Positions 4-20,225 of a stretch of DNA of 20,225 bases are shown here, piece by piece; position 1 is the first letter of the stretch; every line of letters starts with the position of its first letter. The stretch comes from a virus. The stretch is taken from positions 1 through 20,225 of IMG/VR virus record IMGVR_UViG_3300009008_001351, one strand, 5' to 3'. A program made the position numbers and the translations under genes. The notes under the pieces are model-generated. The model searched no databases. It had not been told where the DNA came from and was given only the letters and a program-made list of their open reading frames with translations.

Positions 4-1461
4 ATGCCCGACGACACCAAGAAGTCCGCCGACCCCCTCGACATGCTCAAGGGGCGGGTCAAGCTCGACCCGGAGCCGCTGGAGAAGGCGCGCGGCTACA
101 CCGTGGGGACCATCCGCCAGTGGAAGGGCGGGAGCTACCAGAAGCAGGCAGATGGAAGCTGGAAGCCGGCACCGGGGGCCAAGCCGAAGGCCAAGGGCGG
201 CGGCTCGCCGGAGCGTGGACCCGCCAGCCGGAGGCTCCGCGAAGCCAAGCGGTCGCCCGCCGACGAGAAGGCCAGCCACACCGCTGTCCAGGCCCACAAG
301 GAGGCCCCGGAGGCGCTGGCGACCGTCGCGGCTGAGTTCAACGCCACTGGCGACTTGCCTGGAAGCGCCTTCTTGTGGTGGGAGGACAGCGGCTTGCCCT
401 TGGTGCGCCGTGGCTCGCTGACCAGCGCCCAGATGTCGGAGGTGCTGGCGATGGAGATGCTGGGCGAGGACTACAGCGAGAGGGGCTGGTCCGCGATCCG
501 TGAGCAGCCCACCGACACCATCAAGCGCATGGCCGCGCACATCAACAAGCTGAAGCAGACCAAGAAGTCCGAAGCGCCGACCTTCCGCATCGGCGGGGTG
601 ACCTACGCGCGGGAGAGCTACGTCGAGCCGCCTCACCTCAGCGGCAACCCCGGCATGAAGCTGCGCGGGGGCAAGAAGAAGGGCAAGTTCGGGAAGCAGT
701 CGGAGGCGGAGGCGTACGCGGACAACGCGGACAAGTCCCTGGAGCCGATGGAGAAGGCCAAGGGCTACCCCACCGGCACGATCCGCCAGTGGAGGGGCGG
801 CCCCCACCAGAAGCAGGCGGACGGAAGCTGGAAGCCGGTGAAGGGGGGCAAGGGCAAGACCGCCAAGCCGAAGAAGAAGCTCGCGAAGCTGGCGTTCTCT
901 GCTGACCCGCCCGCGAAGGTGGCTGCGGCGGTGGCTCAGGTCGAGGGCGGCAAGAAGATGGACAAGCTCATCGATGGGTGGTGGGTGGTCTCCAACCACC
1001 CCGATTGGATCGAGGTCCAGGCGGGGGAGGCCAACATCGAGTTTACTGCGGGGCAGGCTCGCGCGTTCCACGGCGAGTACGATCCGGTGGAGTGGGCCAG
1101 GGAGGGCTACGTTCCTCCGCACTTCACGTTCGGGCGCGACAAGGGGACTTGGTTTGCCGACTACGGCGAGGAAGGGTTCACCAACACCTTCGCTCACGGC
1201 AACAGCTTTGCTGAGGTGTGGCGCGCGGCCCACGCCAAGTACAGCAGCGCCACGAAGTCGCAGCGTCCCCCTGCTCGCATCGGGTCTGTGACCTACGTGC
1301 GGGAGGAGTACGCCGAGCCGCCTCACCTCAGCGGCAACCCCGGCATGAAGCTGGCGAACGTCGTTGAGGGCCACGTCACCGTCGAGGACGGCGGGCCTGC
1401 TACGGTGGGTGGCGTGCGGCGCATGGCCCCCGGACTGGAAGCCTGGGCCAACAAGGAGTAG
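4..1461 (+). CDS. Two-unit GTVRxW-module protein of unknown function (5' end uncertain)
   Basis: A 485-residue hydrophilic, Lys/Gly-rich protein built as two similar halves. Each half opens with the module seen in two other proteins here (residues 28-55 and 251-279: G-Y-x-x-G-T-I-R-Q-W, then Q-K-Q-A-D-G-S-W-K-P). Each half ends with a second motif, V-T-Y-x-R-E-x-Y followed by E-P-P-H-L-S-G-N-P-G-M-K-L (residues 208-220 and 438-450). The parts between differ: the first is helical and charged, the second richer in aromatic residues (around residues 322-400). I recognise no enzyme family. It sits directly upstream of the portal gene, and its terminal bases carry the portal ribosome binding site, so it belongs to the head operon. 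Shared modules with the giant proteins downstream suggest a virion-associated or packaged accessory protein (inference). The ATG begins 3 bases into the window, so the true start could be upstream. Confidence 0.75.
   Translation: MPDDTKKSADPLDMLKGRVKLDPEPLEKARGYTVGTIRQWKGGSYQKQADGSWKPAPGAKPKAKGGGSPERGPASRRLREAKRSPADEKASHTAVQAHKEAPEALATVAAEFNATGDLPGSAFLWWEDSGLPLVRRGSLTSAQMSEVLAMEMLGEDYSERGWSAIREQPTDTIKRMAAHINKLKQTKKSEAPTFRIGGVTYARESYVEPPHLSGNPGMKLRGGKKKGKFGKQSEAEAYADNADKSLEPMEKAKGYPTGTIRQWRGGPHQKQADGSWKPVKGGKGKTAKPKKKLAKLAFSADPPAKVAAAVAQVEGGKKMDKLIDGWWVVSNHPDWIEVQAGEANIEFTAGQARAFHGEYDPVEWAREGYVPPHFTFGRDKGTWFADYGEEGFTNTFAHGNSFAEVWRAAHAKYSSATKSQRPPARIGSVTYVREEYAEPPHLSGNPGMKLANVVEGHVTVEDGGPATVGGVRRMAPGLEAWANKE
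624..663 (+). repeat. 40-bp direct repeat, copy 1 (inside the first CDS)
   Basis: This 40-base stretch is identical to 1314-1353. The copies are 690 bases (230 codons) apart, so they are in frame and encode the same E-P-P-H-L-S-G-N-P-G-M-K-L motif. Identity at the third codon positions as well suggests a recent duplication or gene conversion. Confidence 0.9.
1314..1353 (+). repeat. 40-bp direct repeat, copy 2 (inside the first CDS)
   Basis: Exact copy of 624-663. Identity breaks off on both sides: one mismatch just upstream, and the sequences diverge completely after the shared Leu codon. Protein similarity continues upstream through the V-T-Y-x-R-E motif. Confidence 0.9.
1453..1458 (+). promoter_or_regulatory. 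Ribosome binding site of the portal gene
   Basis: AAGGAG lies 9 bases before the GTG at 1468 and overlaps the last codons of the upstream gene. It supports the GTG start and shows that portal translation is tied to the preceding reading frame. Confidence 0.7.
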
Positions 1462-1467
1462 CAGCCC

Positions 1468-3186
1468 GTGGCGATCCGTGACGACCTCCGGCGAATCGGT
1501 GAAGCAGCGCGCGTCGCGGCCACCGCCCGTGTTCGGGCTGGGCTCGATGCCGCTGCGGTTCGCGTGGAGCAGTTCGCGGACGGGCAGCGGGTCCGCGAGG
1601 TGGACAACCGCCTAGAGAAGGCAGCCGCCCAGGCGATCCGCTCTGGCAACGACGGCAACCACGACTTCGATGACCCGAAGGGGATCAGGTTCGACCCCTT
1701 CGACCTCGTCGCCGTGATGGGGTACCGCGACCGACCCTCCGCCATGACCTTCGCCGCCATGGAGACCGTGGGGACCACCGTCCCCGTGGTCGCTGACATC
1801 ATCCGCACCCGCGTCAATCAGGTGTGCATGTTCGTGCAGCGCCCAGAGAACCGGCACGGGTCGGGCTTTGAAGTCCGCCTCCGCGACCGTGGCAAGAAGA
1901 TGAGCAAGGCGGCGGAGAAGAAGGCGGAGGAGCTTCAGCGCCAGATGCTGAACTGCGGGCTGCCCGACCCCAACCGGGGCGGCTACCCCAACGACCCGCT
2001 GCTCACCTTCGCCAAGAAGTCCATCGCGGACACCCTGACCTTCGACCAGTGGTGCTGGGAGATCGTCCCCGACCGCAAGGGCAACCCCGCCTACTTCTGC
2101 ACCCTGGACCCGTCCACCATCAGGCTGGTGGACCCTGGCCTGCGCGCCCCCGACGACCCGTTCGCCGTACAGGTGGTCCACGGCTCCATCGTGTCCGACT
2201 TCACCCAGGACGAGTTGGCCTTCTGCGTCCGCAACCCGCGCTCCGGCATCCGCTCCTTCGGGTACGGGCTGTCGGAGACTGAGTCGCTGGTGCGCGAGGT
2301 CACCGGGATGCTCTGGGGCATCGAGTACAACCGCTCCTTCTTCAAGAACGGAGCGGCGAGCAAGGGCATCCTCAACTTCAAGGGCACGATCCCCGACCGC
2401 CACCTCCAGGCGTTCCGCCGCCAGTGGTACGCCATGGTCTCCGGCGTCCACAACGCTTGGCGCACGCCCATCACGAACGCGGAGGAGTTGCAATGGATCA
2501 ACATGCAGCTTTCCAACCGCGACATGGAGTACAGCGCGTGGCTGGACTGGCTCATCAAGGTGGCCTGCGCCCGCTTCCAGATCGCCCCGGAGGAGGTCAA
2601 CTTCAGCTACGGCAACGCCGGCCAGTCCCAGGCGATGGGGCAGCCCTCCATCGAGGAGAAGCTGAAGGCGTCGCGTGACCTGGGCCTGCGCCCCCTGGTG
2701 CGGTTCTTCTTCGACCAGTTGAACCGCCACTACCTGTGGGCGGTGGACGAGGACTTTGAGTCGGTCCCGGTCGGGCTGGACGAGAAGGGCGAGCAGGCTG
2801 AGGCGGAACTCCTCCAGCAGTTGACCTCCTTCGCCATGACCATCAACGAGGCCCGCGAGGTGCTTGAGCTTGAGCCGCTGGACGAGGACAAGGGCGGCGA
2901 GGTCATCGCCAACCCGACGTGGCTCCAGTACGTCCAGGCCAAGGAGCAGGCTGCCATGATGGGTGGCATGGGCGGCGAGGGCATGGAGGAGGGCATGGGG
3001 GACGACGGTGGCTTCGGCTACGACGACGATGAAGATGCCGGAGAATCGCCCTTCTCCGTTGACGCCCCCGGCCAGGAGGGCGAAGATTCCTACGAGCCTG
3101 CTGCTGCGAAGTCGGTGACGGGCCTTGAAACACGCGGTCGGAAGCGAAAGCGACAAGTCCGCCGCCAATACGAGGTCATCACCTGA
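1468..3186 (+). CDS. Phage portal protein (HK97-type-like)
   Basis: A 572-residue portal protein, the dodecameric ring at one vertex of a phage head through which DNA is packaged and ejected. The core around residues 120-460 has the expected features: the F-x-x-W-C-W-E-I-V strand with a following L-D-P-S-T-I-R element, the D-E-L-A-F-C-V-R-N-P-R segment, a Y-G-x-S-E-T-E-S-L helix, the F-F-K-N-G-A-A-S-K-G-I-L strand, and a late helix (W-L-D-W-L-I-K-V-A-C-A-R-F) followed by I-A-P-E-E-V. The arrangement resembles the phage_portal family of HK97-like phages. The C-terminal tail (from about residue 490) is Met/Gly-rich, then strongly acidic, and ends in a basic patch (R-G-R-K-R-K-R). The GTG start is chosen for its AAGGAG site. 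No terminase gene precedes it in the window. Confidence 0.88.
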   Translation: MAIRDDLRRIGEAARVAATARVRAGLDAAAVRVEQFADGQRVREVDNRLEKAAAQAIRSGNDGNHDFDDPKGIRFDPFDLVAVMGYRDRPSAMTFAAMETVGTTVPVVADIIRTRVNQVCMFVQRPENRHGSGFEVRLRDRGKKMSKAAEKKAEELQRQMLNCGLPDPNRGGYPNDPLLTFAKKSIADTLTFDQWCWEIVPDRKGNPAYFCTLDPSTIRLVDPGLRAPDDPFAVQVVHGSIVSDFTQDELAFCVRNPRSGIRSFGYGLSETESLVREVTGMLWGIEYNRSFFKNGAASKGILNFKGTIPDRHLQAFRRQWYAMVSGVHNAWRTPITNAEELQWINMQLSNRDMEYSAWLDWLIKVACARFQIAPEEVNFSYGNAGQSQAMGQPSIEEKLKASRDLGLRPLVRFFFDQLNRHYLWAVDEDFESVPVGLDEKGEQAEAELLQQLTSFAMTINEAREVLELEPLDEDKGGEVIANPTWLQYVQAKEQAAMMGGMGGEGMEEGMGDDGGFGYDDDEDAGESPFSVDAPGQEGEDSYEPAAAKSVTGLETRGRKRKRQVRRQYEVIT

Positions 3187-3198: not shown

Positions 3199-3207
3199 AG
3201 ATGCAAA

Positions 3208-3783: not shown

Positions 3784-3786
3784 CTG

Positions 3787-5270: not shown

Positions 5271-8200
5271 ATGATCACCCACGAAGAAGTCGCCAAGGGG
5301 CGAGGCTACCCGGTCGGCACGGTGCGGAACTGGCGTACTGGGCCTCATCGCAAGCGAGCAGACGGCACGTGGGAGCCGGTGACCCCGGCGGTGCGTGTGT
5401 CGTCGCGCAAGCCCAAGCCCAACAAGCAGCCCAACGGCAAGTGGAAGCCCGTCAAGACGCCGTCCAAGCCCAAGCCCAAGGCGAAGTCCCTCCTGTTCGA
5501 CCCCCGCCGCGTGGCGGAACTGTCGCTGAAGCCGGTGGACCCCGACGCCCACTACGATCCGGCGGTGGGCGGAGAAGGCAATCAGGACTACGCCTCCTGG
5601 CCGGAGATCCCGATCAAGGCGCTGGAGAAGGCCCGCAAGGCGCTGGGGACGACCGGGAAGCACTTCGCCTCGCCCAAGAACAAGGTGGAACTGGCGCTGA
5701 TGACGGCGGTCACGCTGTGGACCAACGGTCACGTCGCCGCCGTCCGCGACCCCGACAACTACGACGCCACCAAGGCCGCTGAGTCCATCGTTGACGGAGC
5801 CGGGAGGTTCTTCCTGCCTCCGGGGATGCCCCGCGAAGCCTACGAGGCGGCGGGCCCGCTGCTGAGGCGACTCGCCGCCGCCTCCCCGAAGCAGGAGGTC
5901 TACCGGGGGCTCGTCGTCAAGAAGGCCAGGGAGGTGGAGGCGGTGGACCGCCTCATCGAAGCGGCCAAGGCCGGCTACAAGCCGGAGTTCGACGTGCGCG
6001 GGATCGCCTCCTTCACCCTCACACCGGCTATCGCAAATCGGTTCGCGTCCATCAGCATGGCTGAGAACCACGTCCAGCCCCAGGGTGGGGTGTGGCGGCG
6101 GCTGGTCCTGACCACGGAGGCCCCTGGCGTCTACGTGGGCGACCTCTCCCGCTACAACGCGGAGGCGGAGGTGGTGTGCGCGCTCGACAAGGTCCGGGTG
6201 ACCGGAGTCTCGACCAAGGGCGACGGCATCATCCTCCAGTGCGAGCCGGTGCTGGAGAAGGGCGAGTCCATGGCAGGCTTCCAGCGCATCCTCGACCGCG
6301 CCTTGAACGAGCGTCTGTCGCGCCGTGAGGACGACGCCGACCTCAACAAGGCCAAGGGCTTCCCGGTCGGCACCGTCCGCAAGTGGGGCGACGGCAAGAG
6401 CTACAAGAAGCAGGCGAACGGCAAGTGGAAGCCGGTCATCCAGCCCCCCAAGGCGACCCTGGTGAACTCCGTGGACCGCATCCTGTCGCTCATCGTCAAG
6501 GACGATGGCAGCGGCTGGGCGGGCACGGTGGCCCTGTATGGCGCTGACGTGGTCTACGAGCAGGACGGTGTCCTCATGGGGCTCCGGGTGACGCCTTCGG
6601 CCCACGTCGTCCGCAAGCCCGTCCAGCGCCTGCCACTCCGCGTTGCCAGCGGCGACCCCAAGAAGTGGGTCAAGGACTCGCTGGCTCCCAAGGGGCTCCT
6701 GTACAACGGTCGCATCACGCCTAGGGCGCAGGCGCTGGTGAAGAAGCTCGACTCCTTCGCCTACCCCGCGACCGTGGAGGAGTTGGGGAGGAAGCACGTC
6801 ACGGAGGCACAGCGCGGCATCAAGCACCTCGATGAGGCCATGACGGTCGGGCCCACCGCCATGACGGACGACGACCTCTCCAGCTTGAAGGTGGTCAACG
6901 GGCGCTTGATGCAGACCAGAACGAACTTCGACGGCGAGGCGGACCACTACCTCGTCACGGGGTCGCGGGACGTGCTCCTCCGCGTGCTGTCCTTCATGGA
7001 GAAGCGCTCAGGCGCTTTCCAGACCAAGGTCATCCTCAAGGGCTTCAAGGAGCTTGATGCGCTCGACCCGGACGGGCTGATGGAGGTGGCTGCCGCCACC
7101 CGCCGGGACCACCCCGACGAGATGTCTCCCGCTGAACTCGCGTTCCTGGCGGCTGCGACGCTGTGGACCAACGGCCACGTGGCAGCCGTCCGCGACCCCA
7201 GCATCTTCGACCCAGAGCGCGCCCGCGCCGTGATCGGGGTCAGTCAGTTCAAGGTGCGGGAGCCCACGCAGGCGATCTACAGCGCATCACGCAGGACCCT
7301 CCAGCGCCTCGCCCAGATCGAGGAGGTGCGCGAGCCCGTGTTCCGTGGCCTCCGCCTCCCCAAGGATGAGTACGACCGCCTCGTCGCCGCCGCCAAGAAG
7401 GGGGAGCAGCCGGAGTTCGATATGCGCGGGCTGGCGTCGTTCACCCTGCACGTGGAGAACGCCACCGACTTCGCCAGCTACGGCGCAAAGCCAGTTGGTC
7501 TATTCGCCCCCGTTGACGGGTCATCGGTCCCCGTCGTCCTGACCTCGCGCAAGCCGCTCAAGGGCTTCGACGTGCGCGACTTCTCGATTCACGATGAAGG
7601 CGAGGTGGTGACCGCCCTGGAGACCGTGAAGGTGGTCGTCGCGGCTCCCCCGCGCACCGTGAGTGATGCGCCGACGCTTCTCATCTTCGACCCGGTCAAG
7701 TACGCCCCCGTCAGCAAGGCCAAGATGCAGTTCCCCGGTATCCAGCGCGCCCTTGATGAAGCCTTCGACCAGCCCCTCCACAAGCCCAAGCCCAAGCCCA
7801 CCCTGAGCAAGGGGAAGAAGTTCCCTCCAGGCACGGTGCGCCAGTGGCAGGACGGCAAGCAGTACATCAAGCGCGCCAACGGCGACTGGGAGCCCGTCCA
7901 CCCCGGAGCACGCAAGCCCGCCGTCCCCCGCACCACCAAGCACGAAGGCACCCGCAAGGACGGCACCAAGTACACCTCGTACCGCCGCTCCCCGGAGCAG
8001 GTAGCCGAAGCATTACGCCGCAAGAACGAGCGGGTCGCGCATCTGGAGAAGCGCCTCCTGACCGTCCAGCGCAAGATGAAGGTGGACGGCCCCACCAACC
8101 AGTCCGCGCTGTGCCTGTGGGTGATGCAGGACACGGGGATGCGCGTGGGTGGAGGCAAGGACGGACACGGGAAAACGAAGGGCAAGCGCACCTACGGGAC

Positions 8201-8645
8201 GACCACGCTGCTGAAGCGGCACGTTCGCATCACGCCCGAAGGACAAGTTGTGATGACGTATCCCGGCAAGGGCGGCAAGCGCCAGTCCCACAAAGTGACG
8301 GACACGGCGCTGAACGCGCTGCTGAAGATGCGTCACGCATCAACCGCCAAGGCCAACGACCCGCTGTTCCCTGACGCCACTAGGAGGACGGTGAGCGCCT
8401 ACGTGAAGCAGTTTGACGCTCGCTACGTCCCGAAGGATCTGCGCTCAGCGGTTGCCAGGAGGACCGCACGCAGCAAGATTGATGCGCTGAAGAAGCGTCG
8501 CCCCCAGGACCCCAAGCGGGCCGTACACTTGATCGCGGCGCACGTGTCGAAGAAGCTGGGAAACACGGAGCGGGTGGCGCTCAGGGACTACCTGGGCCCC
8601 GCTTTCATCGAGGCCGCACTGAAGGAACTTGGCTATGACGACTGA
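5271..8645 (+). CDS. Giant fusion: two ADP-ribosyltransferase-like domains and a C-terminal type IB topoisomerase
   Basis: A 1124-residue multidomain protein. GTVRxW modules lie at residues 8-37, 360-389 and 847-876, with a half-module at 52-61. ART-like domain 1 has V-Y-R-G (R212), S247-F-T and E298-A-E300; ART-like domain 2 has V-F-R-G (R692), S723-F-T and E776-G-E778. Both show the R-S-E pattern with the E-x-E loop typical of arginine-modifying ADP-ribosyltransferases. Both are preceded by a shared T-L-W-T-N-G-H-V-A-A-V-R-D-P segment. An unrecognised domain lies at about 395-570. The C-terminal part matches type IB topoisomerase: R958 (M-R-V-G), the T-Y-G-T-T-T-L region, K1000 (G-K-G-G), R1058 (K-D-L-R), N1098 (L-G-N-T, as in bacterial family members) and nucleophile Y1107. 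The ATG at 5271 is preferred, since earlier in-frame starts lie within the minor head gene. Delivery with the phage DNA is inference. Confidence 0.82.
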   Translation: MITHEEVAKGRGYPVGTVRNWRTGPHRKRADGTWEPVTPAVRVSSRKPKPNKQPNGKWKPVKTPSKPKPKAKSLLFDPRRVAELSLKPVDPDAHYDPAVGGEGNQDYASWPEIPIKALEKARKALGTTGKHFASPKNKVELALMTAVTLWTNGHVAAVRDPDNYDATKAAESIVDGAGRFFLPPGMPREAYEAAGPLLRRLAAASPKQEVYRGLVVKKAREVEAVDRLIEAAKAGYKPEFDVRGIASFTLTPAIANRFASISMAENHVQPQGGVWRRLVLTTEAPGVYVGDLSRYNAEAEVVCALDKVRVTGVSTKGDGIILQCEPVLEKGESMAGFQRILDRALNERLSRREDDADLNKAKGFPVGTVRKWGDGKSYKKQANGKWKPVIQPPKATLVNSVDRILSLIVKDDGSGWAGTVALYGADVVYEQDGVLMGLRVTPSAHVVRKPVQRLPLRVASGDPKKWVKDSLAPKGLLYNGRITPRAQALVKKLDSFAYPATVEELGRKHVTEAQRGIKHLDEAMTVGPTAMTDDDLSSLKVVNGRLMQTRTNFDGEADHYLVTGSRDVLLRVLSFMEKRSGAFQTKVILKGFKELDALDPDGLMEVAAATRRDHPDEMSPAELAFLAAATLWTNGHVAAVRDPSIFDPERARAVIGVSQFKVREPTQAIYSASRRTLQRLAQIEEVREPVFRGLRLPKDEYDRLVAAAKKGEQPEFDMRGLASFTLHVENATDFASYGAKPVGLFAPVDGSSVPVVLTSRKPLKGFDVRDFSIHDEGEVVTALETVKVVVAAPPRTVSDAPTLLIFDPVKYAPVSKAKMQFPGIQRALDEAFDQPLHKPKPKPTLSKGKKFPPGTVRQWQDGKQYIKRANGDWEPVHPGARKPAVPRTTKHEGTRKDGTKYTSYRRSPEQVAEALRRKNERVAHLEKRLLTVQRKMKVDGPTNQSALCLWVMQDTGMRVGGGKDGHGKTKGKRTYGTTTLLKRHVRITPEGQVVMTYPGKGGKRQSHKVTDTALNALLKMRHASTAKANDPLFPDATRRTVSAYVKQFDARYVPKDLRSAVARRTARSKIDALKKRRPQDPKRAVHLIAAHVSKKLGNTERVALRDYLGPAFIEAALKELGYDD
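5712..5753 (+). repeat. Near-identical 42-bp repeat, copy 1 (ART domain duplication)
   Basis: These 42 bases differ from 7158-7199 at only three positions and encode the same 14-residue motif (T-L-W-T-N-G-H-V-A-A-V-R-D-P). They mark the start of the conserved part of each ART-like domain. Confidence 0.85.
7158..7199 (+). repeat. Near-identical 42-bp repeat, copy 2 (ART domain duplication)
   Basis: This is the second copy of 5712-5753. All three differences are synonymous third-base changes, whereas the catalytic regions downstream have diverged clearly at protein level. Confidence 0.85.
8622..8626 (+). promoter_or_regulatory. Ribosome binding site deciding the start of the ParB-sigma protein
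   Basis: AAGGA lies 8 bases before the ATG at 8635, inside the last codons of the upstream gene. It favours this ATG over the in-frame TTG at 8629, which is only 2 bases from the site. Confidence 0.6.
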
Positions 8646-11600
8646 CTACCCCCTGCTGCGCCGCTTCTACGGCAACCAGTACGTCGATGAGTGGCTGGAG
8701 GAGTTCCGCCGTGACCGGGAGGACCAGGGGGACGTGGTCGCCAAGTCGCACCGCCTCGCCAAGATGCTCCACGCCTCCCCGCAAGATGTGGAGGACTTCG
8801 TCATCAAGGGCCGGCGGTTCCCGGTGGGGACGGTCCGCACGTGGAAGGGCGGCAAGTTCCGCAAGGAGGCTGACGGGAAGTGGGTCGAACTGGCTGAGGG
8901 CGGCGACGGGCCCGACCACGATGAGGACGGCAAGCACACGCCCCGCGAGGAGGCCCGCGACCTCGACCCCACCCACGCGGAGGAGTTCTTCGACGTGCCC
9001 GGTCAGCATCTGCGGGTGATCGGCAAGGGCGGCGAGCCCGTGATGAAGGCGCTGGCGGAGGCCCTGGAGAAGTCGGACGACCTGTGTGCGGCCCGCCCCG
9101 GCGTCTGCCACGGCAACATGGGGATCTCCCGCTCCGTGATGCCTCAGTTGAGCGAGGACCCCATGGAGGAGTTCCTCATCAAGCTCGCCAAGGACGGCGT
9201 CAGGGTCACCCGTGGGCCCGCTGAGGTCGGCAAGCTCCGCGCCTCCCAGATGGAGATCCTGACCAGCAAGGTGCTGGGGATGAGCGGGTCGGTGAGAGGG
9301 GGCGGCTTCAGCGGCATCACCACGCCGATCATTGTCTCCAGCGACGGCTTCATCGTGGACGGCCACCACCGCTGGGCCACGCTGATGACGCTCGACCACG
9401 TCAACAAGATGGAGGTCTACCGCGTCGATATGCCGATCGACAAGCTGCTGGTGGCCTCCGCCCAGGCGGACGGCGTCGAGTTCCGCTCGCTGCATGATGA
9501 CGGCGGCGGCAAGGAGACCAACGAGCAGCGCGTCGAGATGCTGAAGAAGGCCATTGCCAAGTCCAACTACACCCCCGAAGGCAGCAAGACCGTCGAGTGG
9601 GCGAAGCAGGGCGGCAAGGCGCGCAAGTCGTTCCGGCCCGCGATCCTCATCAAGGGAGGCCCGTTCATCGGCCCCAGGGGCGGCAAGTGGGCTGATGCGA
9701 AGCACACGATCCCCTACAAGGCCCCCCGCGCGAAGAAGAAGGCCAAGCCGGCCCCGCGTCGCACGAAGAAGGACCCTGCTCCACCCTGGTGGGAAGATGA
9801 GAGCGAACTGGACTTCGGCATCGGCGCGACGGAGAAGGCGCTGAGCAAGGCCATGCAGAAGCCCCCCGGCCAGGGCTGGCAGCGCATCCCCGGCGGGCGC
9901 ATCGCCGGAGGTCGCCGTCGCCTCACGGGGCGCTCTGACCGTGCCTACGAGTACTGGTACCCCAACCAGCTTCGCGCCCAGTCGAAGTACGGGTGGGAGG
10001 TTGATGAGAAGGCCAAGCCGAAGGCCGGAGACCTCGTCTACGTGGGGAACGGCAAGACCGTGTACCGCGTGGTGCCGGAGCACGCCAAGAAGGACCGGAG
10101 CGAGACCTGGGTCCGCGCTGAAGCATCAGGGCGGTTCCGCCGCGTCAAGAAGTCGGCGCTGAAGAAGCTGAAGAAGGTCAAGCGCGGTCGCCCGAAGGTG
10201 CCGTCCAAGGTGCCCCCGAAGAAGGCCAGGGGGAAGAAGAAGCCGGCCAAGCAGCCGGCCCCGAAGCCGCCCAGCCGCCGCAAGGCGAAGGTGTTCAAGG
10301 ACAGCAAGGCCGACAAGGACCGCAACCCGGTCCTGTGGAACATCGAGAACGGCAAGTACTACCTCCAGCGCCACAAGGACGCCGACCGGAAGAAGCAACA
10401 GTGGGGCATCTACGTGCCCCCCGGCCATGAGAAGCAGTTCATCGAGGAGTTCCGGGGCCAGATCATTGGCGCGGCCAAGCGGACGGCGAAGTCGTTCGGG
10501 ATCGAGGTGGTGAACCGCGCCGTGCTGCCGACCAGCGACTACCCCGGACGCATCGTGGGCGAGTCCCCCACGGTGACCGCCACCACGGTCGCCTACGACA
10601 ACCTCATCAGCGCGGCCACTATGGGGCTGGTGATGGCGCTGTCCACGTACACCGGGGGACGCCCCTTCGCGCCCCGGTCCTGGGACTACTGCCTCGCCTA
10701 CGCCCAGGCGCAGGCCAGGACGGAGATGGGGGCCGGTGCGAACGTCACCACGCGCCAGATGGGGATGCTCAAGGGCTTCTTCGCGGCCAAGGCCCGCGCC
10801 TACGACCGCCTCAAGGGCCGCGCCCCGACCAACAAGGACATCGCCCGCGAGTGGACGGTCCTCAAGCGGGACGTGTTCAGCGGCAAGATGGGGACCTACA
10901 GCGGCCTTGATGAGGACGGCAAGAGGGTGACCCACCGCCAGGGGTCGCAGAAGATCCCGATGGACGAGTGGTACGTGAAGGACAGCGAGGGCAACCCCGT
11001 GGGGAAGCCCAAGCCGGGTCTCCTCAAGCTGGCAGACGTGATGCAGAACCTCGCCCAGGGCAACAAGGTGGCCGACAGCGAGTGGCTGATCCAGTACGGC
11101 TCCAGCGCGCCAGAGGTCGAAGCATCTACGCTCCCGCTGGGCGAGCAGCTTCGCCGCCGGGACGAGGTGGAGCGCGTGGTGGCCCGCATGGACAACATGC
11201 TGGGCGACGCGCTGTGGATGAAGCTGGGCCTGGACGACGTGGGCGGCAAGGGGGCCACCACGGTGGAGATCGCGGACGCCCTTGGCATCTTGCCGAAGTC
11301 GGCAGCCTCCACCCGGCGCAAGGCGGTGGGCGAAGTCCTCAAGCAGGCCCGCGTGCAGGCGTCGAGCATCGCCGCTGACTTGGGGATCGAGCGGACCCCC
11401 CGCGCACCCCTGGGGAGGCGCGAGGCGTTCATCAAGCAGGCGTGGATCAAGGACATCGAGGCGGACGCTCCCGCGCGCGTGGAGGTCGGCACCGGCCCGT
11501 CCTGGCGCGACTTGATGGAGCGGTTCGGAGGCTCCCAGGAGCGCGCCATGATCTACGCCGCCGCCGCCAAGGAAGGCCGCGCCGACGAGGTGGCTGCCAT

Positions 11601-12234
11601 CTTGGAGCGGGAGGCGAAGCAGAAGGCCAGTGCGGCGGAGTCCCACATGGTCCGCGAGCTACGCGCCGCCGTCGAGCGCAAGGCCGCTGTCCGCGAGTTC
11701 CACCGCATCTCGCGCCAGTACAAGCCGGTCGGGCCGGCGGCTGACGTGAACCCCTACCTCGACCTCGGCGTCGAGCGGGTCCCTGGAGGCCAGGGGACGG
11801 CCCGGTGGCCGGCGGTCGGTCCGCTGCCGAAGGACGGGCCCACCTCCCGCACGGTCAACGAGGGCCCCTCCTGGCAGCCCCAGGACGACGAGAACCCGCC
11901 GCACACGCCCTGGACGGGTGCGACCTACGACGTGGCTCTGAACGTCGCCCTGGACCCGGACCTGTCGCGCTTGCGGATGCTGCGCGCCATGTACCAGATC
12001 GAGCGCGCCGTGCCGCCTGATGCGACCCCGGAGCAGCGTGCGAAGATGTACGCCAGGGGGCCCCAGCCCAGGTCCACCTTCCGCAAGCCTGGGAAGCCGG
12101 TCCTCCGCAAGCCCGCGAAGCCCGCGAAGCAGGCCAGGAAGAAGAAGGCCAAGCGGGGCAAGGGCAAGACGCGCAAGACGCGCAAGGCCCTCCTCGCCGC
12201 GCTCCCCCTCCACGCGGCATCACCCGACACGTGA
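8635..12234 (+). CDS. Giant fusion: ParB-like domain and sigma-70-like region with lysine-rich tails
   Basis: A 1199-residue protein. A GTVRxW module lies at residues 58-86. A ParB-like domain follows (about 120-285), with the family core V-D-G-H-H-R-W (D242-W247) after a hydrophobic strand and before V-Y-R-V-D-M-P-I. Further short modules are I-G-P-R-G-G-K-W (within 339-362) and G-W-Q-R-I-P-G-G...Y-E-Y-W-Y-P (414-443). A Lys/Pro-rich stretch covers about 503-553. Residues 648-906 resemble a sigma-70 factor: region 2-like Y-D-N-L-I-S-A-A-T-M-G-L at 654, a region 3-like helix pair (703-742) and a region 4-like HTH (T-V-E-I-A-D-A-L-G...S-T-R-R-K-A-V, 875-903). The C terminus is a histone-like Lys-rich tail. 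The gene overlaps the previous one by 11 bases. ParB is well supported; sigma homology is by pattern only. Confidence 0.8.
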   Translation: MTTDYPLLRRFYGNQYVDEWLEEFRRDREDQGDVVAKSHRLAKMLHASPQDVEDFVIKGRRFPVGTVRTWKGGKFRKEADGKWVELAEGGDGPDHDEDGKHTPREEARDLDPTHAEEFFDVPGQHLRVIGKGGEPVMKALAEALEKSDDLCAARPGVCHGNMGISRSVMPQLSEDPMEEFLIKLAKDGVRVTRGPAEVGKLRASQMEILTSKVLGMSGSVRGGGFSGITTPIIVSSDGFIVDGHHRWATLMTLDHVNKMEVYRVDMPIDKLLVASAQADGVEFRSLHDDGGGKETNEQRVEMLKKAIAKSNYTPEGSKTVEWAKQGGKARKSFRPAILIKGGPFIGPRGGKWADAKHTIPYKAPRAKKKAKPAPRRTKKDPAPPWWEDESELDFGIGATEKALSKAMQKPPGQGWQRIPGGRIAGGRRRLTGRSDRAYEYWYPNQLRAQSKYGWEVDEKAKPKAGDLVYVGNGKTVYRVVPEHAKKDRSETWVRAEASGRFRRVKKSALKKLKKVKRGRPKVPSKVPPKKARGKKKPAKQPAPKPPSRRKAKVFKDSKADKDRNPVLWNIENGKYYLQRHKDADRKKQQWGIYVPPGHEKQFIEEFRGQIIGAAKRTAKSFGIEVVNRAVLPTSDYPGRIVGESPTVTATTVAYDNLISAATMGLVMALSTYTGGRPFAPRSWDYCLAYAQAQARTEMGAGANVTTRQMGMLKGFFAAKARAYDRLKGRAPTNKDIAREWTVLKRDVFSGKMGTYSGLDEDGKRVTHRQGSQKIPMDEWYVKDSEGNPVGKPKPGLLKLADVMQNLAQGNKVADSEWLIQYGSSAPEVEASTLPLGEQLRRRDEVERVVARMDNMLGDALWMKLGLDDVGGKGATTVEIADALGILPKSAASTRRKAVGEVLKQARVQASSIAADLGIERTPRAPLGRREAFIKQAWIKDIEADAPARVEVGTGPSWRDLMERFGGSQERAMIYAAAAKEGRADEVAAILEREAKQKASAAESHMVRELRAAVERKAAVREFHRISRQYKPVGPAADVNPYLDLGVERVPGGQGTARWPAVGPLPKDGPTSRTVNEGPSWQPQDDENPPHTPWTGATYDVALNVALDPDLSRLRMLRAMYQIERAVPPDATPEQRAKMYARGPQPRSTFRKPGKPVLRKPAKPAKQARKKKAKRGKGKTRKTRKALLAALPLHAASPDT

Positions 12235-13942: not shown

Positions 13943-14251
13943 ATGCCCGCGTACAATCTGCTCAGATGCTCCCCGACGCCGCCCTACCGGCGTTACGCCT
14001 GCACGGTCCTCGCTGACGACGCCGCCCCTGATGGTTTCCGCGTGGTGGACGCGGACTCCGACGTGGTGGACGCGGAGTTCATGTACGGGCTCCGTGCGGC
14101 CCTCCGTCGCCCCGTCAAGGTGATGACGGGCGTCACCCTGGACCATGAGACCCAGGAGTCGGTGGACATCCGGCGACCCGGCGACGAGAACTACCTCGCG
14201 GCGGCTGTGCGGCAGGTACCTGGGACCCTGCTGGGAGGCATCAAGCTGTGA
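13943..14251 (+). CDS. Unrecognised 102-residue protein
   Basis: A 102-residue soluble protein with mixed composition. AGGA lies 7 bases before the ATG. Its stop overlaps the GTG of the giant downstream gene (GTGA), so translation of the two is probably coupled. Visible features are Y-R-R-Y-A-C-T-V-L near the N terminus and two V-V-D-A repeats (R-V-V-D-A-D-S-D-V-V-D-A). The C-terminal half suggests a beta strand (V-K-V-M-T-G-V-T-L) and a helix (E-N-Y-L-A-A-A-V-R-Q-V). No family or function can be assigned. Confidence 0.6.
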   Translation: MPAYNLLRCSPTPPYRRYACTVLADDAAPDGFRVVDADSDVVDAEFMYGLRAALRRPVKVMTGVTLDHETQESVDIRRPGDENYLAAAVRQVPGTLLGGIKL

Positions 14252-17200
14252 AGCTCGTCATCCTGCCCCCTGACGCCGACGACGACCTCGTCCGCAAGGC
14301 GCGCGTCGCCTGGAACCGTGGACGCATCAAGCCGGGTCACAAGTGGATTCGGCGCGTGCGGGTGTTCCGCAACGGCAAGGCGGACTGGAACCACTACTAC
14401 CCCGACGACGACCTCCCGAAGGTCCGCGCGAAGGCCCAGAAGAAGCTCGATGACCGCAAGAAGCGCGGGCTGAGCAACCTGGGGCTCCCGACGCCCGACG
14501 AGACCAACAAGCCCATCGGGGACTTCGACCGGGACTTCCCCAAGGTGGCCGGCAAGCGCCGCCCGCTCAAGCGCCTCACGCAGCCCTACATCGCCAGCCT
14601 CCTGCCTGGGGACTCCAAGAAGCCGCTCAAGCTGTCCATGAGCCCCACCGTGCTCGCGGAGTACCACCGTCAGGTTGCAGAGCATTACGGCGACGACGAG
14701 GACCCCAACCTCCTGGGGAAGCCGATCTCGCCTCTACGGGCGGCTGAGGTGGCTCTACAGCAGCTTCCGCCCGCCGCCAAGTCCCTCCTGGCGGGGCGGG
14801 TCAAGGAGTTGCGGTTCGTGGTCGCCGCTGATGACAAGCGGTTCGTGGACCACCCCAAGTCGTTCAGCTACGTGAACAACAGCACGGGCAAGATCACCAT
14901 CGCCGTGGACCGGGTCGGCTTCCTGCACCCGCACGGCGAGGCGAGGATGCGCGGCGGGCTGTTCCCCGTCGAGGCGATCGTCCACGCGCTGGGCCACCGG
15001 CTCCTGGCGACCATCAACCTCAAGAAGAAGCCCAAGGGCTACAAGGGCCCCTGGGGCGACGACTGGGCCCGCCTCGCGCACGGTGATGCGGGCCGGGAGC
15101 CGGGTGTGACCCTCAACGCGAAGTCGAGCCCCGCTGAGCGGTTCGCGGACAGCTTCGCGGCGGCGGTGCTGTTCCCCCAGCAGCTTGCTGCAAGCTCCCC
15201 CCGCACCTACGACTTCATGCGGCAGTTGCTGGACAACGCCATCCCGGCCCGCGAGAGCGACGACCGCGTCCCTGGCCTCCAGAAGGAGCGCATCGGGGAG
15301 TTGAAGAAGAAGAAGCCGTCCCAGAAGAAGCTCGATGCGCTCGACAAGGCGATCAAGGAGGGACGCGGCCTCGACCAGATGGCGGACGACGACCCGTCCC
15401 TGACGTGGTGGCGCAAGGATGCGGCGGAGAACCACGTCCAGCGGCTGCTCCGCACGGAGGAGGTCCAGCCGTCGTCCTTCACCCGCCTGGACCCGGCGAC
15501 CCTCGACGGGACCGGCAACAAGAAGCGGGACCGCTTCTTTGAGTGGTCCGTCAACGGGCGAACCATCTACATGCGCGTGGGCCCCGTGGGGAGCAACCAC
15601 CCCAAGTGGGACCCCGCCGACCCGGAGAACGCCCAGGACCGCCTGTCGGTCGCCAACTTCAAGGAGATGTGGACGGAGGAAGGCGAGCCCATCGACACGT
15701 GGCAGGCGTGGTGGTACCTGACCCAGGACGACCCGCCGGCTGAGGCCGACGAGTTGATCACCTTCACCGCCAAGCAGAACGTGGGCGGGCTCAACCGCAA
15801 CTACGCCGCCATCAACAAGTGGCGCGCGGCGACGGTCCTCAACCAGCTTGCGGCGGCTGCCTACGGCGGCAAGAAGAAGGGCAAGGACGCGAAGTTCCGC
15901 GATCCGCTGAAGGCGGCGGCGATGCTCCCGGCGGAGATTTCGCTGCGCGAGTACCGCCAGCGGAGCGGGGCCGTGACCCTCGACCGCTGGGAGATCAGCG
16001 GCGAGTCGGCGCTGAAGAAGCTGTCCAAGACGCCCCCGACCGACCCGGCCCGCAAGGGGCTCCTGCGCGAGATCGCGGCCCTCCAGCCGTTCACGGAGCG
16101 CCGGCAGGCCCGCCTCCCCACCGGCAGGTACGGCGTCACGAACTTCGTGATGTCAGCCCTGCCGCCGGGATCGGCGCGGAGCGGCTACGGCGAGTACCAG
16201 ATCCCGCACTTCCAGGCGCTGTTCTACGACAACCCCAACCCGGACGGCACCAGCACGCGCATCATGGTCTCCAAGGGCGAGGCCGGGAACTACTTCATCA
16301 CCGACCCGGTCCTCAAGGAGTTGCTGACGCCCAACGGCGAGGCGATCAACACCGCCGACGACTTGAAGAAGGCGAGCATCCTGGCCGCTCAGAGCCGTCG
16401 CACGGCGTGGGCCAACGTGGCGGTGCCGCCGACCAACAACTCCGACACCTTCCTGCGCTACCACGTCCACGTCATGTGGGACGGTCGCGGGTCGCCGCGC
16501 ATCCTGGGTGATGAGTGGCGCACCATCCTGGGGAAGGACGAGCCCCGGCTGGAGGACTTGCTGAACCGCGAGGGCAAGGTCAAGGGGCCCGTCGTCAAGT
16601 TCGACCGCACGGTCAAGACCCCCCAGGTGGGCCGCGTCCCCAAGGTGGGCGACCGCGTGATGCTGAAGGCCAAGGCCACTGAACTGGGCCGCAAGGACGA
16701 CACCGACGTGATGGTCGAACTGGTCCGCATCTCGCGCGACGACCGGGGCAACAAGAACTTCATCTTCTCCGCCGTGGCCGGCTCCGGGTTCGGTGGTCGG
16801 CGGTTCGTGCGGACGGGCGACCGGGCGGCGCGCATGGACACGCGGGTGATGATCCCGCCGTTTGAGCCGAAGCCGCTCGACCACCACCCGCTCATGTTCT
16901 CCCACTACGCCCTGGACCTCCGGTCGGGCAAGTTCACCAAGCCGCAACTGCGCCTCCTGCTCCCCAACGATGGGTCGGTGTCGCGGTTCGCGCTCACCCA
17001 GCGCCCCGGCGTGACGGTGAACGACGACGGCACCATCGACGTGGACCTCGCCAAGTTCCACCGGCTTCGCCAGGAGTTGCCGGCGCTGACGATGACGGCC
17101 GGCGCGGAGCGCCTGATCTCGCAGACCATGCGGAAGATGGTGGAGGACACCCCCAAGGCCGACCGCTGGCTGGAGCCCGACGACGTGGTGCCGGAGCACC

Positions 17201-20200
17201 TTCGCCAGCTTGGCGCGACGGGGGTCAAGGCGACCGCCCCGTGGGGCGACATTGCCTACGGCAACCACCAGCGCGAGTTCATCTCCGGCTTCTTCGCCGG
17301 CAAGTACCCCCAGCGCAAGCTGGTGTGGCACGGACCGGGCACCGGCAAGACCCCGGAGACCACGGTCGCCATGGAGGTCGCCATGGGGCGCAAGGACCCC
17401 GCCGACCCGTCGAAGCCGCATCCGCTGGCTCCCAAGCGGTGCTGTGTCGTCGTCCCCCCGCCGACGATGGAGAACTGGGGCGAGGAGATCGGGACCTTCG
17501 GGTCGGGAGCCGTCGTCATCGGCACGCACCCGCACGTGTCCATCGACAAGTACCTCGCCAACCCGGAGGACTACGACAGCAAGTTCGTAGTGATCGGCCA
17601 TGAGTACTGGACGGGCCACGCGCCGGCTCTGAAGAAGTCGGGCCTGTTCGACGCACTCATCGTGGACGAGATCCACAAGGGCACGAAGAAGGACTCCAAC
17701 GAGCGGCTGAAGGCTCTCCGCAAGTGGGCCCCCGACATGAAAGCCGTTGCGCTGCTGACGGGGACGCCGATCACCAAGGACACCAGCGACATCCTCCCCA
17801 TGGTCCAGTTGTTGACCAACAACGAGGTGTGGGGCTCGATGGACAAGAAGGATTTCGCGGACACCTTCCTGATGGAGACCCCGACCCTCCGCACGGTCGG
17901 CCAGACCGCCAAGGGCAAGGGCCCGAAGAACTTCATCAAGCCGGAGTACTTGGACGAGTTGGCCGGCAACATCGGCGCGGTGGCCGACATTGCCACGCCG
18001 GCTGACATCGTGGACAAGGTGCTCCCTGCCGTCCGCATTGGCGACACGGATCAGGCGGAGATCGTGGGCGTCGGTGCGGCGCTCTACAACTCCGTGATGT
18101 CACGGATGAGCGCCCACGACCGCGACCTGATCGTGTCGGGGTCGGTCGCCTCCCAGGAGGAGTTGGACCAGCTTGTCTCCAGCACGGGCCGGCAGGCGAT
18201 GACGACTGCCCGGTACTACACGAACACCCCCGCGTACAAGCCTGGGTCCATGGAGCGCACGGTGGGTGCGCCTGGGGCCCGCCGCACCATCGGCGCGGCG
18301 CAGTACGTGACCTTCACGAAGCGGGTCCCCGGCACGCGCCGGGGGACGTGGTCGGAGACCACGGAGAACCTCCGCACCCCCGACCCCAAGCAGTTGTTCG
18401 ACAAGCGCAAGCGCGGCAAGCGGGCCGGCAAGTGGCCGACCCTGGCGGAGCTTGGCGACGAGCAGGCGGCGCTGTACGGGCTGCACTTCGCGGACGTGAC
18501 CGGGACGTTCGACTACAGCACGATCGCGGACACGCGCATCACGCCGGCCCAGCGGAAGGCGATGAAGGACGCGGGTTGGCCCGCTGGCGCGGTCGCCAAC
18601 CCCGATGGGGGCCCGCCGGGGCTCCGCTGCCGGGGCTGGTCGGAGCCTGTCGGGCTCGCGGACACCGCCGTGGAGGCGCTGAAGTTCCAGCAGTTGTACG
18701 CCAGCCTCATCGACCAGAAGCTCCACCCGGAGGCCGCGCTCACGCGGGCTGCGACGGAGACCGGCATCTCGACGGAGGCGGGTGAGAAGCTGCTGTACAC
18801 CCACCCCAACGCCGTCAAGCACCACCGCGTCATCAAGGAAGGCGGCATCGAGGTCGAGGAGGGGTTCACCCTCTACGCCCACAAGGGCGACGGCTGGCGC
18901 TGCTACCTGCCGAAGGACTGGGACCCGCGCACCAACGCCCCCCTGCCGGGTGCGAAGTCCACCATGGACCCTGGGATGCGGAAGTGGCGCGACAAGCAGG
19001 ACTTGATGTGTACCAAGGGCGCAGCGAAGCCCGAAGCCGTCCGCAAGCGCCTGGAGCGGTTCTTCGACGCCGCCGGCCCCGGCCCTGACGGCGAGCGTCA
19101 GGTGGTCCTGTTCGCCAAGAACGTCTTGACGGGCACGGGCGTGCTCCAGAGCGTCCTCCGGCGCATGGGCCTGCAAGATGCCAACGAGGCGCTGCCTGGG
19201 TTCGCCAACTACGACCCCAAGGACCCCCGCGCCAAGACCGGCGCTCCGGCCAAGCGGTACTTCGTGACCTACGGCGGCTCGCAGGCGACGACGGGCGTGC
19301 GGGCGCTGAACTCCGAAATCTTCCGCAAGGTGAAGGACGGAGGCCGGGACACCCATGAGAGCCGCTTCGTGGGCCGCACCAAGCAGGGTGGCAAGAGTTG
19401 GCGCGTGTACGAGGGTGATGCGGCGGAGAAGGGCGTGACCATGGCCCAGTGGTCCGACAAGGAGCGCGACAAGATCAAGGCCCAGTTCAGCATCGAGGTG
19501 CCGGAGAGCTACGTGAAGGACGACGACGGCGTGCGGTACTTCTACGGGTCCCGCACCTCCCGCAAGATCCTCAACAAGATCGCGTCCTACCCCGACCCCA
19601 GCAAGGTGACCGACAAGGCCACGGCGGACAAGATCAAGGCCCAGATCGCGGAGCAGAAGGCCAAGTACATCATCGAGGCCCGCAAGAAGGCGATCACCAA
19701 GCCGCCGCTGACGGCGAAGCAGATCGAGGTGTTCAACAACGTGGTCGCCGTCGTCGCCTCCGACGCGGCCAAGGAGGGGCTGAACTGGGGCAACGCGGGC
19801 GAGTGCATCGAGTACGACGTGCCCCAGTCCCCGATGGACGAGTACCAGCGGATCGCCCGCTCTGCGCGGATGCTGCCGAAGGTGGTCGCGGACAAGCTGA
19901 TGGGGACGCCGAAGAACCCCGGCCCCTTCGCCAAGATCAGGGCCCAGGAGCGGGCCCTGTTCAAGACGGCGCGAGCCCACGGACCGGAGGGGTTCATCGC
20001 CAAGTCCACCGTGATGGGCGAGGCGTTCAAGCGCCCGATGGGCGTCGAGCAGGCGCTGGACATCGTCGCCCTTCGGGCGGCGGCGGGCGCGACGACGGCG
20101 ACCTCCCGCGAGGACATTCGGCTCTGGGACGCCATCCGGGGGCGGGCCGACTCCGCTCGCACGTTCGGAGCCCAGGAGGCCCTGGCCGCGTTGCAGGAGT

Positions 20201-20225
20201 TCCGCACCACGCGCTTCGCCAAGAG
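14248..20225 (+). CDS. Giant polyvalent protein: zincin-like domain (catalytic Glu missing) plus SNF2-type helicase, 3' end outside the window
   Basis: An open frame of 1992 codons with no stop before the window edge. It starts at a GTG overlapping the previous stop. An N-terminal tag-like segment (about 28-55) ends in W-N-H-Y-Y-P-D-D. Around 210-320 is a zincin-like domain: V-H246-A-L-G-H250 followed by S-P-A-E297-R-F-A-D-S-F-A and S-P-R-T-Y-D-F-M, the layout of phage-associated metallopeptidases, but the Glu of HExxH is Ala247, so peptidase activity is doubtful. Residues 350-1000 are unrecognised. From about 1005 there is a superfamily 2 helicase: H-Q-R-E-F, Walker A G1029-P-G-T-G-K-T1035, Walker B D1140-E-I-H, T1171-G-T-P, motif IV near 1619, motif V S1838-D-A-A-K-E-G-L-N-W and motif VI Q1867-R-I-A-R-S-A-R. 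The lobes are separated by a long insertion. SNF2-like DNA translocase activity is likely. Confidence 0.85.
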   Translation, partial: MKLVILPPDADDDLVRKARVAWNRGRIKPGHKWIRRVRVFRNGKADWNHYYPDDDLPKVRAKAQKKLDDRKKRGLSNLGLPTPDETNKPIGDFDRDFPKVAGKRRPLKRLTQPYIASLLPGDSKKPLKLSMSPTVLAEYHRQVAEHYGDDEDPNLLGKPISPLRAAEVALQQLPPAAKSLLAGRVKELRFVVAADDKRFVDHPKSFSYVNNSTGKITIAVDRVGFLHPHGEARMRGGLFPVEAIVHALGHRLLATINLKKKPKGYKGPWGDDWARLAHGDAGREPGVTLNAKSSPAERFADSFAAAVLFPQQLAASSPRTYDFMRQLLDNAIPARESDDRVPGLQKERIGELKKKKPSQKKLDALDKAIKEGRGLDQMADDDPSLTWWRKDAAENHVQRLLRTEEVQPSSFTRLDPATLDGTGNKKRDRFFEWSVNGRTIYMRVGPVGSNHPKWDPADPENAQDRLSVANFKEMWTEEGEPIDTWQAWWYLTQDDPPAEADELITFTAKQNVGGLNRNYAAINKWRAATVLNQLAAAAYGGKKKGKDAKFRDPLKAAAMLPAEISLREYRQRSGAVTLDRWEISGESALKKLSKTPPTDPARKGLLREIAALQPFTERRQARLPTGRYGVTNFVMSALPPGSARSGYGEYQIPHFQALFYDNPNPDGTSTRIMVSKGEAGNYFITDPVLKELLTPNGEAINTADDLKKASILAAQSRRTAWANVAVPPTNNSDTFLRYHVHVMWDGRGSPRILGDEWRTILGKDEPRLEDLLNREGKVKGPVVKFDRTVKTPQVGRVPKVGDRVMLKAKATELGRKDDTDVMVELVRISRDDRGNKNFIFSAVAGSGFGGRRFVRTGDRAARMDTRVMIPPFEPKPLDHHPLMFSHYALDLRSGKFTKPQLRLLLPNDGSVSRFALTQRPGVTVNDDGTIDVDLAKFHRLRQELPALTMTAGAERLISQTMRKMVEDTPKADRWLEPDDVVPEHLRQLGATGVKATAPWGDIAYGNHQREFISGFFAGKYPQRKLVWHGPGTGKTPETTVAMEVAMGRKDPADPSKPHPLAPKRCCVVVPPPTMENWGEEIGTFGSGAVVIGTHPHVSIDKYLANPEDYDSKFVVIGHEYWTGHAPALKKSGLFDALIVDEIHKGTKKDSNERLKALRKWAPDMKAVALLTGTPITKDTSDILPMVQLLTNNEVWGSMDKKDFADTFLMETPTLRTVGQTAKGKGPKNFIKPEYLDELAGNIGAVADIATPADIVDKVLPAVRIGDTDQAEIVGVGAALYNSVMSRMSAHDRDLIVSGSVASQEELDQLVSSTGRQAMTTARYYTNTPAYKPGSMERTVGAPGARRTIGAAQYVTFTKRVPGTRRGTWSETTENLRTPDPKQLFDKRKRGKRAGKWPTLAELGDEQAALYGLHFADVTGTFDYSTIADTRITPAQRKAMKDAGWPAGAVANPDGGPPGLRCRGWSEPVGLADTAVEALKFQQLYASLIDQKLHPEAALTRAATETGISTEAGEKLLYTHPNAVKHHRVIKEGGIEVEEGFTLYAHKGDGWRCYLPKDWDPRTNAPLPGAKSTMDPGMRKWRDKQDLMCTKGAAKPEAVRKRLERFFDAAGPGPDGERQVVLFAKNVLTGTGVLQSVLRRMGLQDANEALPGFANYDPKDPRAKTGAPAKRYFVTYGGSQATTGVRALNSEIFRKVKDGGRDTHESRFVGRTKQGGKSWRVYEGDAAEKGVTMAQWSDKERDKIKAQFSIEVPESYVKDDDGVRYFYGSRTSRKILNKIASYPDPSKVTDKATADKIKAQIAEQKAKYIIEARKKAITKPPLTAKQIEVFNNVVAVVASDAAKEGLNWGNAGECIEYDVPQSPMDEYQRIARSARMLPKVVADKLMGTPKNPGPFAKIRAQERALFKTARAHGPEGFIAKSTVMGEAFKRPMGVEQALDIVALRAAAGATTATSREDIRLWDAIRGRADSARTFGAQEALAALQEFRTTRFAK

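Follow-up and report, generated by a model that had tools for sequence, protein, structure and literature searches.

A divergent sigma-70 module in a tagged polyprotein of a SPO1-headed phage clade and its possible delivery with the phage DNA

Why should a segment resembling a bacterial sigma factor lie inside a large multimodule protein encoded close to a phage portal gene? The question is raised by a 20,225-nucleotide stretch of viral DNA (IMG/VR record IMGVR_UViG_3300009008_001351; the whole stretch is referred to here as the window), the + strand of which carries a head-gene cluster. On this strand an uninterrupted open reading frame (ORF), 8635..12234, encodes a polyprotein of 1,199 residues consisting of a short recurring tag (tag A), a ParB-like module, a second tag (tag B), and a third tag (tag C) followed by a sigma module. 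Phages are known either to carry their own RNA polymerase in the capsid, as do N4 and the phiKZ-like phages, or to make sigma factors after infection. A preliminary description of the window had suggested that a sigma-like segment resides in this large, possibly injected protein. The sigma domain is borne out by our analysis and several signs point to packaging; delivery to the host is what we infer from those signs.

The sigma-70-like segment spans residues 596 to 916 approximately, and its membership of the sigma-70 family is, in our judgment, almost certain. Single-sequence Pfam, PHROGs and PDB searches with the window segment returned no sigma family, and in single-sequence Pfam scans of 11 homologues only one matched Sigma70_r2 (E = 0.015) and one Sigma70_r4 (E = 0.021). 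The first two homologues (E = 2e-66 and 6e-62) were encoded slightly downstream of the portal gene in contigs recovered by a portal scan, and the best PDB match of a three-sequence profile was already SigA (E = 8.6e-4). Wider portal and helicase scans brought the alignment to 11 distinct homologues, namely, the window protein and 10 proteins from related phage contigs. In the PDB, SigA again ranked first against the resulting profile (E = 5.3e-7), with regions 2-3 and region 4 matched in order, and sigma factors accounted for 44 of the 49 matches; the remaining five were a dioxygenase, an RNA polymerase beta' chain, two translin entries, and a chain named F4132-2. When the profile was compared by hhalign with Escherichia coli RpoD, RpoS, and FliA together with a cyanophage sigma factor, 241 columns were aligned from region 2 through region 4 (probability 94.9, E = 4.4e-8, score 64.5). 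None of 100 column shuffles scored above 28.1, the reversed profile scored 15.2, and portal and helicase alignments scored 14.5 and 13.9; a trimmed alignment led by a different homologue gave an E value of 2.3e-8. Hence the profile match to sigma-70, which the preliminary description had left to be sought, was obtained once 11 homologues were aligned, far above the shuffles.

Direct scans with the window protein or segment found no relatives in viral contigs or genome contigs, so that the 11-member family was detected only through the portal and helicase scans; one further direct scan recovered just two contigs that were already known. The genome-contig collection (84,980 species), scanned on the basis of short peptide patterns, yielded no relative. 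A tblastn search with the window segment retrieved no match from phages or plasmids. Of the homologues used as queries, L024 had no phage match, and L049 retrieved just seven records, at E values of 2 to 10, headed by a cyanophage RpoD. The sparse single-sequence Pfam matches, and their absence from the window protein itself, might suggest that helical sequence resembles sigma factors here by accident, but the profile match, the shuffles, and the predicted structures all contradict this, and an accidental resemblance seems to us scarcely credible.

The window segment and the L007 homologue were modeled with AlphaFold2, and the two models had predicted local distance difference test (pLDDT) scores of 70.0 and 75.8 and predicted template modeling (pTM) scores of 0.38 and 0.40, respectively. 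Judged by title and chain, all 50 Foldseek matches listed for each model were sigma chains, with best E values of 1.3e-3 (window segment) and 3.5e-3 (L007 homologue). The best VIA-align Z scores were 9.3 and 10.6 for the window and L007 models, and helical models may attain such scores through arrangement alone; we nevertheless credit the structural likeness to sigma factors because the sequence profile, the order of the regions, and the identity of the top matches agree. Region 2 of the window model superposed on Pseudomonas aeruginosa sigma-28 over 77 residues at 1.9 Å (Z = 8.7), and region 2 of the L007 model did so over 75 residues at 1.7 Å (Z = 10.6). On SigE, 72 residues (of a target of 74) superposed at 2.3 Å for the window model and at 2.2 Å for the L007 model. 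The region 2 helices expected by the preliminary description are therefore present in both predicted structures, superposing on sigma factors at 1.7 to 1.9 Å.

Like SigA, RpoD, and FliA, the segment has region 2, a region 3-like part, and region 4 in the right order, by both profile and fold, as had been proposed by eye. Downstream of a Lys/Pro-rich linker (10147..10293), a region 2-like domain occupies residues 596 to 697 (10420..10725; profile and predicted fold) and is followed by region 3-like helices recognized in the profile, which end in PTNKDIAREW (residues 706 to 740; 10750..10854). Region 4 corresponds to a helix-turn-helix (HTH) at residues 835 to 916 (11137..11382), where SigA and RpoD region 4 aligned and both models place helices. 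Unlike these three sigma factors, the module is fused into a polyprotein, carries an insertion between regions 3 and 4, has replaced the region 2.2 glutamine and glutamate and a region 2.3 tryptophan, and has an extra C-terminal domain. The insertion (residues 744 to 833; 10864..11133) forms four strands, arranged as two predicted beta hairpins, in both models. It contains the motif DQAxEQVPMExWQVxxPDG and holds 10 of the 30 columns of the segment that are invariant in the 11-homologue alignment. It lies where the sigma finger (region 3.2) is expected and may take the place of that element. In region 2.2, we take E. coli D403, Q406, and E407 to be contacts to the beta' clamp helix of core RNA polymerase; the position of D403 is acidic in 9 of the 11 homologues, and a region 2.3 phenylalanine is invariant across the 11. 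The helical domain that follows region 4 (residues 954 to 1027; 11494..11715; pLDDT about 80 to 90) is well conserved in the family alignment and is specific to the family.

What, then, separates the sigma module from the rest of the polyprotein? The tags of the window are each preceded by a sequence of the form [LIVMF]xK/[ASG], a probable cut site of the head protease whose Lys-type motif we deduce from sequence. In the clade contig G001, the ORF at the scaffold position, between the protease and the capsid protein, contains 12 such sites, compared with 1.2 in shuffles (0 of 2,000 shuffles reached 12), and the scaffold-type protein of an Exiguobacterium phage contains 14, compared with 1.3 expected. 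The capsid protein of the latter phage reads ALNKALEAG, and the capsid proteins and proteases of contigs G001 and G002 share L[NA]KAL[TS]AG. Replication-region controls had 10, 7, 7, and 6 sites, compared with 16.3, 10.0, 5.7, and 5.6 expected. The consensus sequences of the tags are PxGTVRxW...GxW (tag A), GGPFIGPRGGKWADxxHTIPWK (tag B), and GWxxIPxGKxGGYRK...YWYP (tag C). Of 32 distinct polyprotein tags, 28 stand directly after a site and 4 lack one, whereas a site precedes 9% of positions chosen at random in those proteins; the regular expressions for tags and sites were set after the sequences had been viewed, and the site and tag counts are accordingly not blind.

In the 1,199-residue protein, a VIK/G site with tag A (GRRFPVGTVRTWKGGKFRKEADGKWVEL) lies at 8800..8904, this tag recurring at five other positions of the window, and a LIK/G site with tag B (GGPFIGPRGGKWADAKHTIPYK) lies at 9646..9720. 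A LSK/A site with tag C follows at 9841..9963, and the predicted cut there would release the sigma module as residues 406 to 1199. A site directly precedes tag C, or a related tag in L020, in 11 of 11 sigma homologues, compared with 6 to 33% of random windows of the same length. The modules ahead of this site vary: the window has a ParB-like module, and L007, L024, L017, and L020 have InPase, the N-terminal partners in these four homologues, including an additional SAM lyase module in L017, being known polyvalent-protein domains. In the L047 homologue the reading frame has just a few residues ahead of the site. A constant site behind varying partners is the pattern expected were the sigma module released by the head protease inside the prohead. 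The L017 homologue (L017:6644-11599) is itself a 1652-residue fusion in which InPase and a SAM lyase module (PF23780, E = 9.3e-9) are joined to the sigma module, with several sites and tags in the same chain. Tag-after-site modules recur through the window (79, 748, 5289, 6342, 7803, 8800, 9646, and 9841) and in related loci, and the combination of tag and site is possibly a general code for packaged effectors.

The tags were also sought in isolated phages. Searches with the tag B and tag C regions found nothing in isolates, and tag A found only Leptospira phage LE1 and Chryseobacterium phage MA9V-3, at E values of 3 to 8; we retain these two matches despite their E values because the tags there also follow sites. 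In LE1 (L071:10879-16188), such tags follow [LIVMF]xK[ASG] sites in two proteins, one annotated as a tail protein and the other containing a ParB domain, and the tag system thus extends to a temperate phage isolate. No match to the sigma profile was obtained in the stretches examined of LE1, MA9V-3, and the Exiguobacterium phage.

The portals nearest to that of the window are those of SPO1-type phages. Close portal relatives were defined as those with 53% identity or more, and both close and distant relatives were counted when at least 6 kb of sequence was available downstream. The sigma module was present in 8 of 8 close relatives, and also in L024, which has 5.2 kb; none of the 10 distant relatives carried it. 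The helicase scan yielded 10 loci, all of which have the module. In nine other close relatives the downstream sequence is too short to judge. Two pairs of loci have identically scoring sigma proteins, L016 and L017, both among the eight, and L024 and L026. Contig G001 comes from a myophage; the families identified on it include tail sheath, baseplate, head protease, DnaB-type helicase, primase, and DNA polymerase exonuclease. We read this phage as lytic, on weak evidence, because no lysogeny family is listed for G001. In four contigs, PF03237 gave no terminase match. Searches of seven clade records including the window, all incomplete contigs, gave no match to a stand-alone sigma factor (PF04542, phrog_351) or to RNA polymerase (PF00562), and for this reason we think that the phage probably relies on the polymerase of its host. 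The distant relative G007 has a stand-alone sigma ORF of 217 amino acids, and a SPO1-like isolate also has one. A 298-amino-acid ORF of contig G012 (L049:2728-3621, minus strand) matched PF04545/Sigma70_r4 (E = 5.5e-9) through an HTH, but it is endonuclease-like by eye and was not counted as a sigma factor; this ORF appears to be placed across the preceding gene.

Starting from the computed features (sigma homology, fold, domain order, conservation throughout the clade, and the tag-and-site pattern), we infer a route of cutting, packaging, ejection, core binding, and promoter choice. As its place in the head-gene cluster suggests, the sigma factor would be synthesized late in infection as a polyprotein and would enter the prohead during assembly. 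The head maturation protease would then cut at LSK/A before tag C, as the site pattern indicates, freeing the polypeptide that begins at residue 406. The freed polypeptide would be a divergent sigma-70 factor made up of region 2, a region 3-like part, a new insertion in place of region 3.2, and region 4; this mature piece may be packaged and enter the next host along with the DNA. In the new host, regions 2 and 4 would, by homology, bind host core RNA polymerase, and the enzyme would be directed to phage promoters ahead of any phage gene expression. We favor packaging because of the neighboring portal, topoisomerase IB, and SNF2 helicase genes, the shared tag modules, and the protease-like sites in 11 of 11 homologues, and on these grounds the sigma protein is likely to be packaged and ejected. 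That the module acts as a working sigma factor on early phage promoters is an evenly balanced proposition, and we give the whole chain, from polyprotein through head-protease cut, packaging, and ejection to redirection of host RNA polymerase before phage expression, an even chance of being right. More tentatively, and with slightly less confidence than that, we suggest that a SPO1-headed lytic clade programmes the host polymerase at once with a capsid-borne sigma factor and loads an exchangeable effector set by means of a tag-and-site code. Under this code the exchangeable effectors would be the ParB-like, topoisomerase IB, InPase, SAM lyase, and SNF2 helicase modules. Poxviruses pack a transcription factor, and a capsid-borne phage sigma factor would be the phage counterpart.

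Several observations weigh against a packaged, working sigma factor or lessen the evidence for one. The pTM scores of both models are low, as are the whole-length TM-scores, and no Foldseek match in the PDB falls below an E value of 1e-3. The position of E. coli Q406 is glutamine in only 1 of the 11 homologues and that of E407 is glutamate in none, and of the region 2.3 tryptophan pair only one aromatic is mostly kept, one tryptophan position being mostly tyrosine; core binding and melting may therefore be changed. Divergent sigma factors can differ at the region 2.2 core-contact residues. Over the whole protein, the number of sites exceeds expectation only in the window (12 compared with 5.9, P = 0.0135) and not in G001 or G002. 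Because the clade contigs are incomplete, the missing stand-alone sigma factor and polymerase are weak evidence, and PF00940 matched nothing anywhere, controls included, and is hence uninformative. Four contigs revealed no promoter motif, intergenic k-mer counts being no higher than in shuffles and TTGAC-N16-19-TANNNT being absent; with 7 to 36 intergenic stretches per contig the power of this search was low, and its result weighs neither way.

In the main competing explanation, the module is ejected as a decoy that binds core RNA polymerase or promoter DNA and blocks or titrates host transcription without initiating at phage promoters. The loss of the region 2.2 glutamine and glutamate and of one region 2.3 aromatic would suit such a role, as would the presence of a large conserved insertion at the sigma-finger position and of host-directed or counter-defence enzymes among the other modules of such polyproteins; there is also the precedent of SigN, a sigma factor reported to be toxic on its own (PMC10601692). 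Yet the module retains the region 4 HTH, the region 2 phenylalanine, and the region 3 end PTxExIA, more than simple core binding needs, and we consider a decoy rather unlikely. Less probable still is a sigma factor that acts in the producing cell on late promoters, in the manner of the SPO1-type late sigma factors, its association with the capsid being incidental. The stand-alone sigma ORFs of the distant relative and the SPO1-like isolate agree with a late role, as does the rise of the sigma factor of Listeria phage CKA15 at 15 to 25 min, reported in PMC12282133, but the present module is fused to changing N-terminal modules, is tagged like its neighbors, and has a protease site in front of it in all 11 homologues, and cutting in the prohead would bring no gain to a late sigma factor. 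The sigma fold might, finally, have been kept only for DNA binding or head assembly, with no role in transcription; the densest run of invariant columns does coincide with the insertion and not with the promoter-contact segments, but the parts from region 2 to region 4 are all retained in order, which simple DNA binding would not require, and we regard such structural reuse as improbable.

How does a packaged sigma factor, if that reading is right, compare with known systems? Polyvalent proteins, such as phage P1 DdrB and the N4 virion RNA polymerase, are large, multimodule proteins encoded beside virion genes (Iyer et al. 2017, PMC5512222) and have been proposed to enter the host together with the DNA, where they would initiate transcription and act against defence systems (PMC5512222). 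The proteins described here resemble them in having ParB/Srx-type, InPase, and SNF2 modules next to virion genes (PMC5512222). Two or more unlike modules are combined in one polypeptide near the portal gene (ParB-like and sigma; InPase and sigma; InPase, SAM lyase, and sigma). In phage polyvalent proteins, early transcription has been attributed to N4-like RNA polymerase modules or host-modifying enzymes (PMC5512222), and the main text of that survey of 131 domains does not contain the word sigma, whereas the window family carries a sigma module. Processing of polyvalent proteins has been ascribed to zincin peptidase modules (PMC5512222), whereas the pattern here suggests the head maturation protease; nine window proteins scanned, from a partial contig, gave no Pfam match to a zincin-like metallopeptidase, a module that is common but not universal in the polyvalent class. 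In T4 and giant phages, the prohead protease cleaves after Glu within a short motif, and many proteins processed in this way, an RNA polymerase among them, are packaged by SPN3US (PMC5694885, PMC10052503); the putative cut site of the window clade differs from the SPN3US-type motif in ending in Lys rather than Glu. As in the N4-like and phiKZ/SPN3US-like phages, the packaged protein would serve early transcription, but those phages bring a whole polymerase, whereas here only a specificity factor for the host enzyme would be brought. The window clade shares with SPO1-type (Herelleviridae) phages the head type (portal, protease, scaffold, and capsid order) and the sigma superfamily; the SPO1-type sigma factors are separate small genes, whereas the window-clade sigma lies in the head-gene cluster with tags and protease sites.

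No packaged or injected phage sigma factor was reported in the literature searched, most subscription papers being outside the reach of that search. We class as new a sigma-bearing polyvalent protein and, as a second new feature, its proposed processing by the head protease. If the proposal is correct, delivery of a specificity factor alone would be a third and cheaper route to winning the first minutes of infection, the cut site with its short N-terminal tag would be a readable code for finding packaged effectors in dark phage genomes, and a sigma factor with an unusual replacement of region 3.2 would offer material for studying how sigma factors set up initiation.

The ParB-like module ahead of the sigma module (residues 159 to 293; 9109..9513) matched phrog_2859 (E = 1.2e-24), a family with unknown function in PHROGs, and had weaker matches to phrog_2159, annotated as a ParB-like partition protein (E = 9.8e-5), and to phrog_620 (E = 0.014); Pfam gave no ParB match. 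The ParB-like reading of the preliminary description is upheld by these PHROGs matches. The VDGHHRW core is also present, one residue from where it had been placed (residues 241 to 247, nucleotides 9355..9375, rather than 242 to 247), and the module appears from its sequence to keep the conserved Arg of DGHHR, as in the ParB/Srx superfamily. In all, 425 phage records match the module, one of them through a stand-alone protein of Salmonella phage moki that is annotated as a putative structural protein.

The neighboring genes are likewise on the + strand. The window opens with a protein carrying two copies of tag A (4..1461; sites at 79 and 748), followed by the portal protein, with SPO1-type relatives (1468..3186; PF04860, E = 2.3e-20; phrog_12, E = 1.5e-45). 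The longest ORF at 3201-4067 is arginine rich, of improbable composition, and has no family match; it is probably a wrong-frame ORF. The protein encoded at 4277-5242 is MuF-like by eye, its family matches not being convincing. It is followed by a tagged polyprotein (5271..8645) with three copies of tag A (5289, 6342, and 7803) and a C-terminal topoisomerase IB module (PF01028, E = 1.5e-12, or 9.2e-14 when the module was scanned alone). Two of its modules (5289-7900), each after a tag A, resemble ADP-ribosyltransferases by eye; Pfam gave no confirmation. Downstream of the gene for the 1,199-residue protein come an HTH ORF, a short conserved ORF (13943-14251), and a polyprotein with an SNF2-type helicase (14248..20223; PF00176, E = 1.8e-7; PF00271, E = 1.8e-5; phrog_62, E = 1.1e-26), which continues past the end of the window.

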